From NCBI GenBank assembly GCA_019240525.1, contig JAFAYE010000001.1:283300-347299 (forward strand): a stretch of DNA of 64,000 nucleotides. The letters run 5' to 3'. The notes under the pieces are model-generated. The model did not search any database and had not been told where the DNA came from. It was given only the letters and a program-made list of their open reading frames with translations. Source of the stretch: Candidatus Eremiobacterota bacterium. GTDB lineage: Bacteria; Vulcanimicrobiota; Vulcanimicrobiia; Vulcanimicrobiales; Vulcanimicrobiaceae. Position numbers and translations under genes: made by a program. Below are positions 32,567 to 52,747 of this stretch, piece after piece; position 1 is the stretch's first letter; each line of letters opens with the position of its first letter.

Positions 32567-32641
32567 CCGCCACGGACTTTGCCATTCTAGAACCCGCGTT
32601 CCGCCTTGTCAAACGGCCGCCCCGGGGGATAGAGGGCTGCC

Positions 32642-33301
32642 ATGAGCATCGACCCAATCGCTTCCAAACTCGCCGGCGAAGGCGTCAGCTTTGCCTCTCA
32701 GATTGCCGGCGCCGCCCGCAAGTACGGCCTCGACCCCGATCTGCTGGCGGCCGTGGCGGCGCAAGAGACCGGCGGCCCCGGAAGCAATGCCGGCCGCAAC
32801 GTCATTGGCGACGGCGGCCACGGCCGCGGGATCTTTCAAATCGATGACCGCTGGCACGTCTTCGCATCCACCCCAGCGGCCATGGACCCGGCCAAGAACT
32901 CCGACTACGCCGCCGGGATGATTTCGGGACTGCTCAAAGAGTACGGCGGCAACGTTCACGCGGCGCTCTCGGCATACAATGCGGGCTCGCCGACGGCCGA
33001 AGGCACGAAAACCCGATGGTCCGACGGCAGCGATCTTGCGTATGCCGATTCGGTCATGCGCCACTATCGCTGCCTGACCGGGGAGGCGCCGGAATCGCCG
33101 GCCACGTCAGCGATCGCCGAGTCGAATGCGACCGTCGCATCGGTCGGCACGCTCGCTGCTCAAGCCCAACAGGCGCCATTGCTCTCGCCGCCGATGCCGG
33201 GGATTTCGATGCCTCAAGCGCACGCCGCCCATTCCTACCACCGTCAAGCAACGGATTATCTCGCGTTGCTCGACGACGACGCCGACGAGACGAACTCGTA
33301 G
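32642..33301 (+). CDS. Lytic transglycosylase (SLT/goose-lysozyme-like), first gene of a four-gene cassette
   Basis: 219 residues. The catalytic domain spans about 17-150: AARKYGLDPDLLAAVAAQETGG (catalytic glutamate in QETGG), DGGHGRGIFQIDDRWH (GxGxxQI motif), and AALSAYNAGSP near residue 105. There is no N-terminal signal peptide, so export would depend on another route. The C-terminal 60 residues are unstructured (AQAQ, SPP, PG) and end in ATDYLALLDDDADE. This tail is shared with the next gene. RBS GAGGG sits before ATG 32642. The four genes run co-directionally with little spacing. Confidence 0.82.
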   Translation: MSIDPIASKLAGEGVSFASQIAGAARKYGLDPDLLAAVAAQETGGPGSNAGRNVIGDGGHGRGIFQIDDRWHVFASTPAAMDPAKNSDYAAGMISGLLKEYGGNVHAALSAYNAGSPTAEGTKTRWSDGSDLAYADSVMRHYRCLTGEAPESPATSAIAESNATVASVGTLAAQAQQAPLLSPPMPGISMPQAHAAHSYHRQATDYLALLDDDADETNS

Positions 33302-33317
33302 AACAGGAGAAACGGAC

Positions 33318-33683
33318 ATGTCATCTTTCCCTATCGAAGGAACCATCACGGGCACACCCTTTACCGATCCAACGAGCGGAACCGTGCGCGGTTCGCGCCT
33401 TCCGGACAGCGGTACGGTGCACGGCTCGGATAACGGCAGAGTGCACGGCTCGGAGAGCGGGAGAGTGCACGGCTCGAGCAGCGGCACCCTTGCGGGCGAG
33501 ACCGCCGAATCGCCGCAGAGCGAAGCGATCGCGGAACTGAGCACGCTCATCTCGTCGTTGAGTTCCCTCGCGACGCAAGCCCAGGGCCTTCCGCTCAGCC
33601 CGCCTAGTCTGCCGGGCCTGCCGCAGAGCGGTTATCAACCTCAAAGCACCGATTACACGCAGTTCGCCGGTGACGCCGAGTAA
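33318..33683 (+). CDS. Small secreted-type protein with GxVxGS repeats and tail shared with the muramidase
   Basis: 121 residues, no known family. Repeats of about 8 residues fill positions 8-55: GTITGT, GTVRGS, GTVHGS, GRVHGS, GRVHGS, GTLAGE. A short helical bridge (AIAELSTLISSLSSLATQAQ) leads to a Pro/Gly tail (PLSPPSLPGLP) ending in STDYTQFAGDAE. The tail aligns with the C-terminus of the upstream transglycosylase. AGGAGA precedes the start. I infer a structural or substrate protein of the same pathway; function unknown. Confidence 0.68.
   Translation: MSSFPIEGTITGTPFTDPTSGTVRGSRLPDSGTVHGSDNGRVHGSESGRVHGSSSGTLAGETAESPQSEAIAELSTLISSLSSLATQAQGLPLSPPSLPGLPQSGYQPQSTDYTQFAGDAE
33411..33482 (+). 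repeat. Three tandem 24-bp repeats within the 33318-33683 gene
   Basis: Units at 33411-33434, 33435-33458 and 33459-33482 share the core GTGCACGGCTCG. Each encodes eight residues (GT/RVHGS plus two). Flanking, more diverged units extend the protein repeat both ways. Confidence 0.85.
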
Positions 33684-33707
33684 CTAAAGCTTCAAAGGAG
33701 CGATGAC

Positions 33708-34040
33708 ATGGCATTCTTGCTTCCAGTCCTCGAAGGGCTCGGCAGCGGCCTCGTCGGCAATGCGATCGGCGGTGCGCTTGGAAACGGCGTCGCCGGCAAT
33801 GCCCAGAACGCTGCAATGAACGCACTCAACACCCAAGACGAAACCTTCCAGCTCGGAATGTACGGCTCGGAGATTCAGAATCAAGAGCAGCTTCAGGTGC
33901 AATCCGAAGTCTTCGATCAGATGATGGACGAGCGCAGCGAAAACATGCGTGAAGTCGATACGCTGCGCAACGTGGACATGGCACAGCGCAAGATGGACGA
34001 CTCGATCACGAAGAAGTTCATCCAATCGATCACTGAATGA
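33708..34040 (+). CDS. Small helical protein, cassette gene 3, function unknown
   Basis: 110 residues. The N-terminus is a Gly/Ala-rich hydrophobic segment (LEGLGSGLVGNAIGGALGNG), about residues 8-30, like the glycine-zipper stretch of secreted or translocated proteins. The rest is a long charged helix, QNQEQLQVQSEVFDQMMDERSEN and beyond, ending in DDSITKKFIQSITE. The motif D(D/E)xITKK(F/W)I recurs at the end of the next protein. AAAGGAG precedes ATG 33708. No family recognised; coiled-coil assembly is inferred. Confidence 0.68.
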   Translation: MAFLLPVLEGLGSGLVGNAIGGALGNGVAGNAQNAAMNALNTQDETFQLGMYGSEIQNQEQLQVQSEVFDQMMDERSENMREVDTLRNVDMAQRKMDDSITKKFIQSITE

Positions 34041-34309
34041 TGATGAGCGCGTTGCCGGCTCTTCGCAACGAACGCACGGCCGCGGGGCGCGGCACCCTCA
34101 CCGCGCCCCGCTCGGACGCCGTTTCAGGCGCCGATTCCGACTCGAGTGCCGAGCAGCAAGCACAGATCGCGGCCCAGCACCAAGCGTTCGACTACGAGGC
34201 GGCCGAACGGGCCGAGATCCTGCGCGAGCACGAAGTGCTCCAAGCGCTGCTCATGGCGCATCTCAAAAACGAAGACGAAATCACGAAGAAGTGGATCTCG
34301 CTGATCTAG
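34037..34309 (+). CDS. Small helical protein, cassette gene 4, function unknown
   Basis: 90 residues starting at ATG 34037 in an ATGA overlap with the previous gene. The first 40 residues are disordered (Ala/Ser/Arg). The remainder is a helix (AEQQAQIAAQHQAFDYEAAERA, then ILREHEVLQALLMAHL) ending in KNEDEITKKWISLI. The terminal ITKK(W/F)I motif matches the preceding protein, suggesting the two are paralogous building blocks or bind the same partner. In length and helical layout it is like small rod/needle-type subunits of export machines, but there is no sequence proof. Confidence 0.68.
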   Translation: MMMSALPALRNERTAAGRGTLTAPRSDAVSGADSDSSAEQQAQIAAQHQAFDYEAAERAEILREHEVLQALLMAHLKNEDEITKKWISLI

Positions 34310-34361: not shown

Positions 34362-34435
34362 GGGCCGTTAGCTCAGCTGGTTAGAGCGCATGCTTGATAA
34401 GCATGAGGTCCCTGGTTCGATCCCAGGACGGCCCA
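34362..34435 (+). tRNA. tRNA-Ile (anticodon GAT)
   Basis: Acceptor GGGCCGT pairs with ACGGCCC. The anticodon stem CATGC/GCATG encloses loop TTGATAA, giving GAT. T-arm CTGGTTCGATCCCAG. Discriminator A34435; CCA is not encoded. No rRNA genes flank it. Confidence 0.97.
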
Positions 34436-46752: not shown

Positions 46753-49700
46753 TTACGCGGCCCATTGATCTCCGAAGAGCGACGCTTGCATCAACACTTG
46801 ATTCGTTGCCTTGTCCGTTTTGTCGGGCGGATAACCGTAACGGCGGAGTAAGCGCTTGACGCTAACTTGGAGACCAGCGCGTGCGCTTTCACGCAGGTTC
46901 CAATCGATCGTGATATTCTCGCGAAGGTTTTTGACAAGCTCGCGCGCGATCGTCCGAAGCGCATCGTCTCCAAGCACTTCAACCGCGCTCTCGTTGTCGG
47001 CCAGCGCATCGTAAAATGCGACCTCCTCCTCAGTCAGTCCGAGCTGTTCGGCTCGTTTTGGATCGTCGCGCAGCTCTTTGGCGAACTCAATAAGCCGCTC
47101 GATCAGTTGCACAGTATCAATCGAACGATTGTCGTACCTGCGCACCGCCTCTTCTAACATTTCGGAGAACTTGCGCGCTTGCACGGCGTTGGATTTCTCG
47201 CGGACCTTAATCTCTTGACGCAGCAGTCGCTGCAACATCTGCTGCGCCAAGTTCTTCTGCGGTAAATCTTTGATCTCGGCAAGAAAGTCATCCGAAAACA
47301 CCGAGATATCCGGCCGCTTAATACCGGCCTGTGCGAGCACGTCCACGACGCCCTGTGTAGCCACGGCCTCAGAAACCAGTTGCTGAAGCGCTAGGTCTAC
47401 GTCTTCGGCGCTTTGGGCTCCGGGTGGTGTCGCTTTTACAATGGTTGCGCGCACGCCCCGAAAGAACGCGACCTCGTCCGAAAGCGCCCGGCCCAGATCG
47501 GAGGTCGACGCCAATGCGAAGACTCTCAGAACGCGCAGTACCCCCTCAAGAAAGCGTGATCGGAGGCCTTCCACGCCCAGGATAAAGTCCGCCGCCTCGT
47601 TCAGGCCGGCAAGCTTCGTTGCCGGCGGTCCATCAAGGTATTGCAAATATGCAAAGCCATGGAACATGTCGCGTACCACTTCGTACTCGCGCTGTAGCGC
47701 CACAACGGCGTCCCGTTCATCCTGAATGGGATCCCCAGTCCCACCTGAGGCCACATAAGTCGCCAACGCGTTCTTGAGTTCCGTGGCGATCCCGATATAG
47801 TCCACGACGAGGCCTCCGGGTTTATCCCGGAAGACACGGTTGACGCGCGCAATGGCCTGCATGAGAGAATGTCCGCGCATCGGTTTATCGATATAGATCG
47901 TATGAAGAGAGGGGACGTCAAAGCCGGTGAGCCACATATCGCGTACGATCACGAGTTGCAGAGGATCTGAAGCGTCTTTGAAGCGCTTCTCAATGGCCTT
48001 GCGCCGCGGCCTGTTGCGTAGGTGTGGCTGCATTTCCATGGGGTCCGCGGCGCTGCCGGTCATGACGACCTTGATCCGGCCCTTCGAATCCTCGGCGTTA
48101 CCCCAATCTGGGCGCAAGGCGAGGATGGCGTCGTAGAGGTCCACAGCGATGCGGCGGCTCATCGTCACGAACATTGCCTTGCCGTCGAAGTTAAATGACG
48201 CCTGGCGCTGCTCGAAATGCGCGACCAGATCCTTGGCGACCTCTTTCATGCGACGCTCCGCCCCGACCAGCGCCTCAATCTGCGACCATCGCGTGGCGTG
48301 TTTCCGTCGTTCGTCTGTTTCTTGGCCTTCCGTGATCTCCTCAAAAGCCTCATCAACCTTTGGGATCTCCTCGGGATGCAGCGCAAGCTTTGCAATCCTG
48401 GCTTCGTAGTAGATTGGGACCGTCGCCTTATCTTCGACCGCACGTAAGACGTCATAGACGTCAATGTAGTCGCCGAAAAGCGCCCGCGTATTCCGATCGG
48501 TCAGCTCGACCGGCGTGCCCGTAAAACCGATTCTCAGCGCGTTAGGCAGCGCGTCCTGGAGATGTTTGGCAAAGCCGTATTTCGTCTCGCCCGTCGTTTC
48601 GTCGATATGGCCCTCAAGGCCGTATTGGCTCCGGTGAGCTTCGTCGGCGATAACGATGATGTTACTGCGATCGCTCAGTTGCGGAAAGTGCTCCTCTCCC
48701 TCAAGCGTCGTGAACTTTTGAATGGTTGAAAACACGATGCCGCCGCCGGCCACGCGCAATTTAGATCGCAAGTCATCACGTTCTGCGGCGTGCTCGGGCG
48801 TCTGGCGCAGAAACTGGGCGCAGCGGAAGAACTGCTCAAACAGTTGGTCGTCGAGATCGTTGCGGTCGGTAACCAGCAGAAGCGTCGGATTCGCCAGTTC
48901 CGGCTCTTGGGCGATCTTGCCAGCAAAAAACGCCATTGAAAGGCTCTTGCCACTGCCCTGGGTATGCCAAAAGACCCCGATCCGTCGATCGCCATCAATG
49001 GCGCGAATCGTTTCGGCCACCGCCTTATTCACCGCGTAATACTGATGATACGCCGCCAAAATCTTATTTGGCGGTGTCGTTGCCTCGAAAAACGTGAAGT
49101 ACCGAATGAGATCGAGAAAAATATGCTTGTGGAATACTTCAGCTATCAACGTATCAAGCTCGATCGCCGATTTGCCGCCATCTGGCCGCTTCCAGACGCT
49201 AAAGCGTTCAAACGGCGCAGTAAGCGAACCTATCCGCGCCTGTGTGCCGTCGGAGATGACCGTGATCCCCGTGTACGCTAGCAGCCCTGGAACCTCGACC
49301 TTATACGTCTCGATCTGTCGAAAGGCGCCGGCGACAGTAGCTTTCTCCCCCGTCGGACTCTTAAATTCAAAGATCGCTAGGGGTAGACCATTAACGAAGA
49401 TAAGGAGGTCCGGCCGGCGTTCGCTGGCGTTTTCTTTAATAGTGAACTGGTTGACTGCAAGCCAGTCATTGGAATCTGGATTCTCGAAATCGATCAGTCT
49501 GGCCCGATCATAGCGCATCCTGCCCGCACCGTCGCTATACTCGACCTCTACGCCGTCGATAAAAAATCGATGGAAGCGTTGATTGTTCAAAACGACGTCG
49601 GTGGTTTCATGGACGCTGACCTTACGCAAGGCGTGCTCTAATGCGATCGCCGGAATCGTCGGATTCAGCCGCTGGAGCGCGGAACGCAGGCGCCCGACAA

Positions 49701-49842
49701 GAACGGAATCGCGGAAAGTGACCCGCTCTTCATTGATACCACCCGGGGCGATTACCGACCCGTGCAAATACGCGTAGTCGCGATCCTTCAGAAGGTCGAT
49801 GGCGTATTGTTCAACCGCATCTTCGTCGAGATAACTGGACAT
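46753..49842 (-). CDS. hsdR: Type I restriction endonuclease subunit R
   Basis: 1029 residues. N-terminal nuclease domain with the PD-(D/E)xK signature [20 protein letters not shown]. The motor has Walker [26 protein letters not shown] box, [26 protein letters not shown] and [16 protein letters not shown]. The C-terminal helical domain includes [13 protein letters not shown] and [18 protein letters not shown], and binds the methylase core. Its ATG abuts the hsdS stop (TGAATG). All catalytic motifs are intact, so cleavage activity is expected. Confidence 0.96.
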
Positions 49843-51174
49843 TCAGGCAGATTGTTCAACCATGCGTTCGGTGTCGATTGCGCAGATTTCGCCTGAAACG
49901 AGTTTGGGGAGCAAAGCGTCGCGTAGAGCAGCCAGCGTGCGAGATTCATGGATGCCAGCGACAATGCGGTCTACCATTGGACTCACCAGTGCAGCGAATG
50001 ATTTAGCGACAACCGCGGGCGGGAGCACGACTTCATAACGAGCGATGTGCTCCCAAGCAGCTCTGGGCATCTTTGTCCCCGTCGAACACATCTCAGTATG
50101 AGTTATTAGTGCATCGCTGCAAAGATGCATCATTACAAACCCGTACCACTCGGAGCAAGCAGCGTCAGCGACAAGGATGTCGGTCGAGCACACACCATCG
50201 AGTGGTGCAACACCCACCTTGTGGAAATACGGACGTAGTTTCCCGAAGAGTAACTCACGATGCCTAAATACAAACTTATTACTCTCTAATCCGTTGCCTT
50301 GACTCCAGTCGCATAGAGAGAGGCTGCGACGCGGCATATGCTCAAGTCCAATGTAGGGAGTACCATCTTTGATATCGTTAGCTGATATGCCGCGACGAAG
50401 ATTAACGGCTACCTCACCTAACGAACCAGCTCTCCATCCAGTGGGGACTTCCCGTGCTCCGGAATCTTCGAAAGAGTCTGGAAACATTGCCGCAACGTTC
50501 ACCGGCAGAGCCGTGTCACGTCCTTCGGCTTTCGCTCGCACGGGATCGAAATCGATAAACCACGATTTGAATAGCGCCCGCGCAATGGCTTCGAGCGTCG
50601 CGCTCATCTTGCGATTAAGCTCGATCTTGTCGTCGAGTGCGTCCAATACTCGCGCGATTGCGCGTTGTTCTGTAGTCGGCGGTAGGGCAATCGTCATCTG
50701 CCGCAAATGCGTGGGGCCGTAATGCTTCAGAACGCTGCCGGATGCCATTCGCTCCGCCTGAACGGCGAAAAGCCGCGACTTCAAAAAGTGTCGCAGAAAG
50801 CTTCGTTCAAGGCATTCTATCTTCGGTCGCATGCGTATTATCCCGGTGTACGCAATGGAGCCGCATGTTTCAGGCGAAACTTCGCTGACCATGCCGATGC
50901 TGGCGCTTGTGCTTACTAGAAGATCTTCAGCCTTGAGGCGAAAGTGCGCCCACCGGTTCTCAACCATGCTAGGATCAAGACGATCAGCGCCGTCCAAGGT
51001 GGCAAATCTTCCTTGAATCGACTTCAATCGCAGAAGCGGCACGCCAGACTCACGGAAGTCCTTAGCCAGAATGCCGGGCCCCTCTTGGAAGTCGACCGCA
51101 TCCAAAAATGTTAATAAGGTCCAGTGGGCAGGCAAAGCGGTGAAGAGCTCACTGTTTAACCTACTGGATTGCAA
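49843..51174 (-). CDS. hsdS: Type I restriction-modification specificity subunit S
   Basis: 443 residues with two target-recognition domains: [21 protein letters not shown] near residue 15 and [20 protein letters not shown] near 250, each followed by a conserved helix. The central repeat is [24 protein letters not shown] with [20 protein letters not shown], and the C-terminal one has [20 protein letters not shown]. The recognition sequence is not predictable. It overlaps hsdM by 14 bases and abuts hsdR. The [19 protein letters not shown] block is characteristic of this HsdS group. Confidence 0.95.
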
Positions 51175-52747
51175 ATCCGACCCTCTTTAACGCTTCTGCA
51201 ACTTCAGAATCGAGTTTTTCCGATAGCGACCGCTGCTCGCGGAGCCTCGAAGTAAGGCGACTGATCTTGTCGGCAAACGGCTCGTCATGGTCATCAAGTT
51301 CTTCCGTCCCAACGTAACGGCCCGGCGTCAACGCATACCCATGATTCCGAACTTCGTCGAGCGTCGAGGCCTTGCAGAATCCCGGAAGGTCCGCGTGGCC
51401 GCCGTCGTCCGATCGCCATGCGTGGTAGGCTCCGGCTATACGATCGATATCCTCGTCGCGTAATGCACGATGCGTCCGATCGGTCATCACGCCGAGCTTT
51501 CGGGCGTCGATGAAGAGAATCTGACTGGTGCGATCACGAAACCTATGATTACGACGATCGCGTGACAGAACCCAGACGCAGACCGGGATCTGCGTCGTGT
51601 AGAAGAGCTGACCGGGTAAGGCGACGACGCAATCGACGAGGCCGCCGTGCTCGGCTTCGACTAACCCTTTCCGAATGTCGCCTTCGCCACTTTGGTTTGA
51701 CGACATGGCGCCGTTGGCCATAACGAACGCGGCAACGCCGTTCGGAGCCAAGTGAAAGGCGAAGTGCTGGATCCAGGCATAGTTGGAGTTACCGACCGGC
51801 GGTATACCGTATTTCCAGCGCTTGTCGTGGCGCAGGCCCTGGCCGCCCCAGTCACTGTCGTTAAAGGGCGGATTGGCAAGAATAAAATCAGCCCGCAAAT
51901 CGGGGAACGCATCTTGCAGAAAACTGCCGGCCGGGTTCCAGCGGATGTCAGCCTCGATGCCCCGGATCGCCAGGTTCATCATCGCAAGGCGCCACGTCGT
52001 GTGGTTCGACTCCTGGCCGTAGATCGCGACATCCCCGATGCGGCCGCCGTGAGCGAGCACGAACTCTTCGGATTGCACGAACATACCGCCGGAGCCCGCG
52101 CACGGGTCGAAGACCCGCCCCTTATATGGTTCGATCAACTCGACGAGCAGCTTCACAACCGACCGCGGGGTATAGAATTCACCGCCGGCTTTGCCTTCGG
52201 CGTTAGCAAACCGTCCAAGGAAGTACTCGTACACGCGGCCGAGGATGTCTTTCTTACGCGACTCGCTGTCGCCCAGACCGATGCCGCTGATGAGATCGAT
52301 AACGGCGCCGAGCCGAGTCGGATCGAGGGAGGGCCGCGCGTACTCTTTGGGCAGCACGCCCTTGAGCGGCGGGTTCTCCTGTTCGATCGCGATCATCGCC
52401 TTGTCGACCAGCGATCCGATCTGCGGCGTCTTGGCTTTCGCGGCGATCTCCGCCCACCGCGCTTCCCGCGGTACCCAAAAGACGTTCTTTGCCTTGTACT
52501 CTAAGCGGTCTTCAGGGTCGCCCTCAGGATCTCGCCTGAGCGTCTGCCACATTTCGGCGAACGCGTCAGAAATGTACTTGAGAAAGATGAGCCCGAGGGC
52601 GATGTGCTTGTATTCCGACGCATCCATCGCGCCGCGCAGGGCATCAGCGGAGGACCAAAGCTTCGCCTCAAAACCGAGGTCAGACTCGCCAGTGCGATGT
52701 TGGCGCGGGGCTGCGTTCGCAGAAGACGCTCTCCGGCCTCGTGGCAT
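51161..52747 (-). CDS. hsdM: Type I restriction-modification DNA adenine methyltransferase subunit M
   Basis: 528 residues. N-terminal helical domain ([33 protein letters not shown]), SAM motif [13 protein letters not shown] (about 218), and the catalytic NPPF motif in [16 protein letters not shown], indicating N6-adenine methylation. Blocks [17 protein letters not shown] and [15 protein letters not shown] are typical. ATG 52747 is used; the N-terminal [17 protein letters not shown] is rich in basic residues and may be a poor leader. First gene of the M-S-R operon. Confidence 0.96.

Follow-up and report, generated by a model that had tools for sequence, protein, structure and literature searches.

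A four-gene group in the genome (2.8 Mb, 97% complete) of a bacterium from Candidatus Eremiobacterota, a soil phylum that has received little study, raises the question of what task a muramidase shares with three small neighbors, P2, P3, and P4, for which searches of Pfam, NCBIfam, and PHROGs returned no credible known family. The group lies within the window, that is, the whole stretch of 64,000 nucleotides of DNA that was analyzed, and we address the question by sequence conservation, structure prediction, gene neighborhood, and the fate of the genes across related genomes.

Composition of the cassette

The initial annotation had listed four co-directional open reading frames including one ATGA overlap, and all of them are present (table 1). 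Shine-Dalgarno sequences are clear for P2 (AGGAG) and P3 (AAGGAG), and the overlap is that of the P4 start with the P3 stop. Nei-Gojobori comparisons within the genus gave dN/dS values of 0.02–0.08 (about 0.04) for P3, 0.09–0.43 for P4, 0.13–0.23 for the lysozyme, and 0.24–0.39 for P2. The ratio stays below 0.5 in all comparisons, which shows that these are four real genes, and purifying selection on P3 is very strong.

Table 1. Features of the cassette and its flanks (positions in the window)
Feature	Coordinates	Strand	Description
Divergent promoter	32584..32612	-	Sigma70-like, TTGACA-N17-TAGAAT, read from sequence; belongs to the DUF177-rpmF-fabH operon, directly upstream of the cassette
Goose-type-lysozyme-like muramidase	32642..33301	+	219 aa, no signal peptide, Pro-rich tail; Pfam SLT 1.2e-10
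P2	33318..33683	+	121 aa, HGS-type repeats and a copy of the lysozyme tail; genus-specific
P3	33708..34040	+	110 aa, glycine-zipper-like hydrophobic N-terminus and long helix ending ITKKFI; cassette core
P4	34037..34309	+	90 aa, Pro/Ala-rich N-terminus and C-terminal helical module common with P3
tRNA-Ile (GAT)	34362..34435	+	ARAGORN; bounds the cassette downstream

The divergent genes upstream, which we take from sequence recognition to be DUF177-rpmF-fabH-fabD-fabG-acpP-ffh, are served by a promoter that is conserved in the majority of the 39 upstream regions that were aligned. A promoter shared by the cassette and the secretion operon described below was considered and rejected, since the conserved upstream motif is the promoter of this divergent fab operon. 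Elsewhere in the window, a region of lower GC (46753-52747) holds long open reading frames that by eye resemble a type I restriction-modification operon.

The muramidase carries the catalytic Glu and the GDxGxGxGxxQxD signature of the goose-type lysozyme/SLT group, and its own version of the motifs (ETGG / GDGGHGRGxFQxDDR, including Glu42 and Asp57) is essentially invariant among 16 relatives. Goose-type lysozymes are also the nearest solved structures (E 3.5e-4), and the top NCBIfam model is the type III secretion system (T3SS) protein IagB at 2.8e-6, far below the cut-off. Judged by hydropathy, none of the cassette proteins has a signal peptide; for the lysozyme none is obvious, the 19-residue window near its N-terminus peaking at 0.75.

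Shared C-terminal ends had been proposed for two pairs of these proteins, and the two pairs turned out to differ in kind. The tail common to the lysozyme and P2 is genuine (BLASTP within the genome of the window, 42% identity over 69 aa, E 8e-10 for the pair) and is seen again against the sequences of relatives; however, it is Pro/Ser-rich, and P2 is restricted to its own genus and one genome of a related genus (G060). The tail looks like a genus-level, recent partial duplication that was joined to short HGS-type repeats, and given this narrow distribution it forms a minor part of the earlier observation. The end common to P3 and P4, unlike the lysozyme/P2 tail, is a conserved structural module and proved stronger than had been claimed: in hhalign, profiles of the two families match across 57 C-terminal columns (probability 99.1%, E 3.8e-19). 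By this profile alignment P3 and P4 are true paralogs with a common C-terminal helical module. The module of about 57 residues (consensus FDxxxxERSExxREx-xLRxxxMxQxKxDDxIxKKFIxxI) is present in all the relatives examined, at family and order level, that have both P3 and P4.

The glycine-rich hydrophobic N-terminus that the initial annotation had noted in P3 is borne out by a hydropathy of 1.44, and so is the long helix, the AlphaFold2 model placing a short N-terminal helix at residues 4-22 and a single helix at 28-109 with moderate confidence (mean pLDDT 69.6). A Foldseek search with this model found no match in the PDB, sequence profiles of P3 and P4 against the solved structures there likewise gave no match and no needle protein, and no structural relative of P3 was detected among solved T3SS parts. 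The FlgJ rod-binding domain (PF10135) had no match at E<=1 in 23 P3 members or in P4 of the window.

Distribution of the Cassette among Relatives

Profile searches matched P3 or a fragment of it in 80–81 of 118 relatives, essentially all inside the class, and all 51 of the named genome matches are metagenome-assembled genomes of Ca. Eremiobacterota or labeled "bacterium." The order lysozyme-P3-P4 is kept across the family, usually adjoining DUF177-rpmF-fabH. The expectation that the four genes would co-occur elsewhere thus holds for three of them and fails for P2. Seven genomes (G022, G046, G056, G069, G073, G074, and G076) have the cassette without the lysozyme, and the other family of the class (f3) has a single P3 gene only, at a different locus.

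P3 matches outside the class were set aside: one lies in a stop-containing frame (G114), and the others are small glycine-rich helical genes arranged in tandem in another family of the phylum (G099, L049 7896-9287; G096, L048 8571-9412), which adjoin TonB/ExbBD-like genes, are weakly P3-like, and are of doubtful homology.

Four genomes (G060, L135 6303-13640; G029, L051 8573-11218; G010, L149 10799-11161; G014, L139 8187-8549) mark the 3' end of P3 as an insertion hot-spot. In G060 an element of 6.8 kb that encodes a large serine recombinase interrupts P3, G029 carries an additional copy of the P3 end and P4, and P3 of G010 and G014 is truncated at an identical codon. These insertions suggest a gene-disrupting integrase attachment site.

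A Reduced Flagellum-Type Secretion System in the Same Genomes

The genome of the window also encodes a reduced flagellum-type T3SS, which we name T3SS-B. Its export operon (C1:2085950-2097680) comprises genes for FlgB-like, FlgC, FliE, FliF, FliH-like, FliI, short FlgG-like, FliM/FliN-like, FliP, FliQ, FliR, FlhB, and FlhA proteins, of which FlgC, FliE, FliF, and FlgG were called by Pfam, FlhA by a match at 2.8e-192, and the rest by position and similarity. A second locus adds FlgF, FlgG, a 64-aa FlgJ-like protein assigned by resemblance, and a sigma factor; the FlgF-FlgG locus of G077 has a separate 79-aa FlgJ-like gene (E 0.0066, below the cut-off). The operon and the cassette are far apart on the chromosome (2.09 Mb vs. 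about 317 kb).

The rod, the MS-ring, and the FliPQR-FlhBA export gate of a flagellum are all represented in T3SS-B, and the flagellin filament, the P-ring, and the hook/junction proteins were not detected. In the genome of the window (G000) and in G003, G020, G025, and G077, neither flagellin (PF00669) nor the P-ring protein FlgI was found above the cut-off, with one sub-threshold flagellin match in G000, and hook genes were not detected in the genome of the window, which gave rod-type FlgC/FlgF/FlgG matches only. By contrast G022, in which a canonical flagellar locus is found as well, gave five flagellin matches, FlgI, and nine rod/hook-type matches. Retention of FlgC, FlgF, FlgG, and FliE likewise separates T3SS-B from injectisomes, which have no flagellum-specific genes. 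FlhA of T3SS-B clusters apart from canonical FlhA, and f3 sequences fall on the B side if the tree is rooted on canonical FlhA. Both T3SS-B and the cassette occur in G025, which is probably Vulcanimicrobium alpinus WC8-2, an organism of 3.50 Mb and 68.4% GC in which no flagella were observed and the flagellin gene is absent (PMC9758169).

Several features of these loci deserve separate mention. FliF of T3SS-B (L034 4768-6249; C1 about 2.087 Mb) has a C-terminal FliG middle domain (Pfam 1e-5); a FliF-FliG fusion is possible, and no separate FliG is seen in the operon. A methylenetetrahydrofolate reductase gene lies between fliP and fliQ (L034 10753-11655 and orthologous loci) in several genera. 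Five deep-branching Eremiobacterota genomes of 7–8 Mb (G104, G105, G110, G113, and G116) have 8–11 FHIPEP (FlhA/SctV) matches each and probably encode many parallel type III systems.

The fates of the two loci run in parallel. As far as contigs show, T3SS-B and P3/P4 are both intact in about 36 genomes, a count that includes G019 with one doubtful frameshift and G009 with P3 spread over contigs, several of the operons running off contigs. In four genomes both are broken. G008 has frameshifts in the FlgG-like gene, FliM, and FlhB, and a deletion in its cassette leaves lysozyme residues 1-112 adjoining P4 77-90. G014 combines a deletion from FlgC into FliP, a stop in FlhA, and a break in FlhB with a P3 truncated at residue 97 and no P4. 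G021 retains only T3SS relics between secD and rpsI, with stops in FliP, and its P4 is a frameshifted pseudogene. In G060, FHIPEP and FliP are absent and P3 is the copy cut by the 6.8-kb element; its break and those of P3 in G010 and G014 fall at one insertion hot-spot. The exception is G042 (98% complete), with no FHIPEP or FliP and yet open P3, P4, and lysozyme frames; a transposase gene stands between its lysozyme and DUF177, and in its P3 the nearly invariant Leu86 is replaced by Pro. Fisher's test on the resulting 36/0/1/4 table, which was assembled by hand and ignores phylogeny and ascertainment, gave an uncorrected p of 5e-5. Where T3SS-B was found without P3, the genomes checked have assembly gaps: the contig breaks off at DUF177 or within the lysozyme gene in G005, G038, G066, and G068, and the fab locus is unassembled in G023, G040, G059, and G075.

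This pattern supports a functional link between the cassette and T3SS-B. The wall hydrolase and helical subunits had originally been read as a compact export or assembly apparatus in their own right; service to such a machine is what the data support, the cassette being not self-contained but an accessory locus that tracks a T3SS-B encoded elsewhere.

In many relatives the T3SS operon carries its own SLT enzyme directly after FliI, which rules out the cassette lysozyme as the sole wall enzyme of T3SS-B. The operon SLT is absent from G000, G020, G029, G031, G035, and G070, all six of which keep the cassette lysozyme, and G069 and G073, without the cassette lysozyme, keep the operon SLT. In this small sample the complementary pattern suggests overlapping roles, and the cassette enzyme may therefore be the T3SS-B wall cutter in the genome of the window.

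Interpretation and Comparison with Known Systems

The reading we favor, to which we give about an even chance, is that the cassette provides accessory, probably exported, parts of a flagellum-derived, filament-less T3SS-B that is present across a whole class of Eremiobacterota. The goose-type lysozyme, for which no Sec signal was seen, would leave the cell through T3SS-B or act with it, cutting the wall for the rod, and P3 and P4 would be exported to form a distal part in place of a hook, filament, or needle, the glycine-rich hydrophobic N-terminus of P3 perhaps serving membrane insertion or tight helix packing. What the data show directly is the identity, conservation, and paralogy of the genes, the presence of T3SS-B, and the joint decay of the two loci; export through T3SS-B, a distal position, and membrane activity are inferred. 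Weighing against this reading are the open-frame cassette of G042, the distance of the cassette from the T3SS-B genes and its position against a fatty-acid operon promoter, the seven genomes that lack the lysozyme and the family with P3 only, the SLT in the T3SS operons of many relatives, and the want of a detectable structural relative of P3 among solved T3SS parts.

Some of these same observations would suit an independent envelope factor, acting in wall remodeling, cell division, or another surface machine and lost together with T3SS-B through a shared lifestyle. Its constant place adjoining the DUF177-rpmF-fabH promoter, its retention in G042 without T3SS-B, and the several lineages that dispense with the lysozyme all fit, but the joint decays are four and independent, in genomes of 1.9–4.0 Mb, and no clear broken cassette stands beside an intact T3SS-B; we regard this explanation as unlikely. 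The functional link itself would also agree with P3 and P4 remaining in the cytoplasm, as chaperones or gatekeepers of T3SS-B export or as its regulators, while the lysozyme alone acts outside. Both proteins are small, acidic, and helical, of a size that fits a chaperone or gatekeeper, and the N-terminus of P4 looks disordered; however, the hydrophobic glycine-rich N-terminus of P3 would be unusual in a soluble chaperone and known chaperone families gave no match, so that we hold a cytoplasmic role to be rather improbable.

More improbable by far is domestication of a phage ejection module resembling T7 gp14/gp16, in which a lysozyme domain and glycine-rich helical proteins would make a trans-envelope tube. 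The likeness lies in a transglycosylase/lysozyme domain with a glycine-rich hydrophobic helical partner and in the shared arrangement of a hydrophobic N-terminus and a long helix; the top PHROG for the lysozyme is an internal virion protein with an endolysin domain (1.9e-11), and two of 23 P3 members weakly match Pfam T7_gp14 (best E 0.0084). Against it, the lysozyme matches are generic for the fold, the weak gp14 matches do not include the protein of the window, and neither significant gp14 homology nor a phage origin is seen: 2.9 million viral contigs gave no relative, no other phage genes lie nearby, and conservation is class-wide.

We found no description of T3SS-B or the cassette in the open-access literature. 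Taken further, the favored reading would describe a class-wide flagellar secretion machine without a filament, exapted independently, with an outer structure built from the previously undescribed helical family P3/P4 and with a type-III-exported goose-type lysozyme, a picture that we put forward only tentatively. If this is true, flagella would have given rise to secretion devices by a third route, in addition to injectisomes and relic basal bodies. The analysis points to a non-motile secretion system of flagellar descent in soil bacteria that are widespread, names P3 and P4 as candidates for replacing hook and filament, and allows the conversion of a flagellum to an exporter to be tested in V. 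alpinus, a species available in pure culture.

The closest parallels include systems suspected or presumed to secrete. The flagellum basal bodies of the endosymbiont Buchnera aphidicola are suspected of an exporter function. They too keep a flagellum-type basal body and export genes without a filament (PMC8109811), but the Eremiobacterota hosts include a free-living isolate, and T3SS-B, unlike the Buchnera structures, is without a detectable P-ring and hook and has a dedicated lysozyme-P3-P4 cassette. Non-flagellar T3SSs, including an early-branching form in Myxococcales, are similarly flagellum-derived, non-motile, and presumed secretion devices; T3SS-B keeps FlgC, FlgF, FlgG, and FliE, whereas the Myxococcales systems are without FlgBCDEK and FliEG (Abby and Rocha 2012, PMC3459982). 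With muramidases of the FlgJ type and the IagB family the cassette shares a dedicated wall enzyme for a T3SS, but its enzyme resembles goose-type lysozymes, and many relatives have a classic SLT within the T3SS-B operon itself. Filament-less flagellar exporters are thus already known in principle from Buchnera (PMC8109811) and the Myxococcales (PMC3459982), and T3SS-B is set apart from them by its rod genes without a detectable P-ring or hook, its hosts, and the P3/P4 family.
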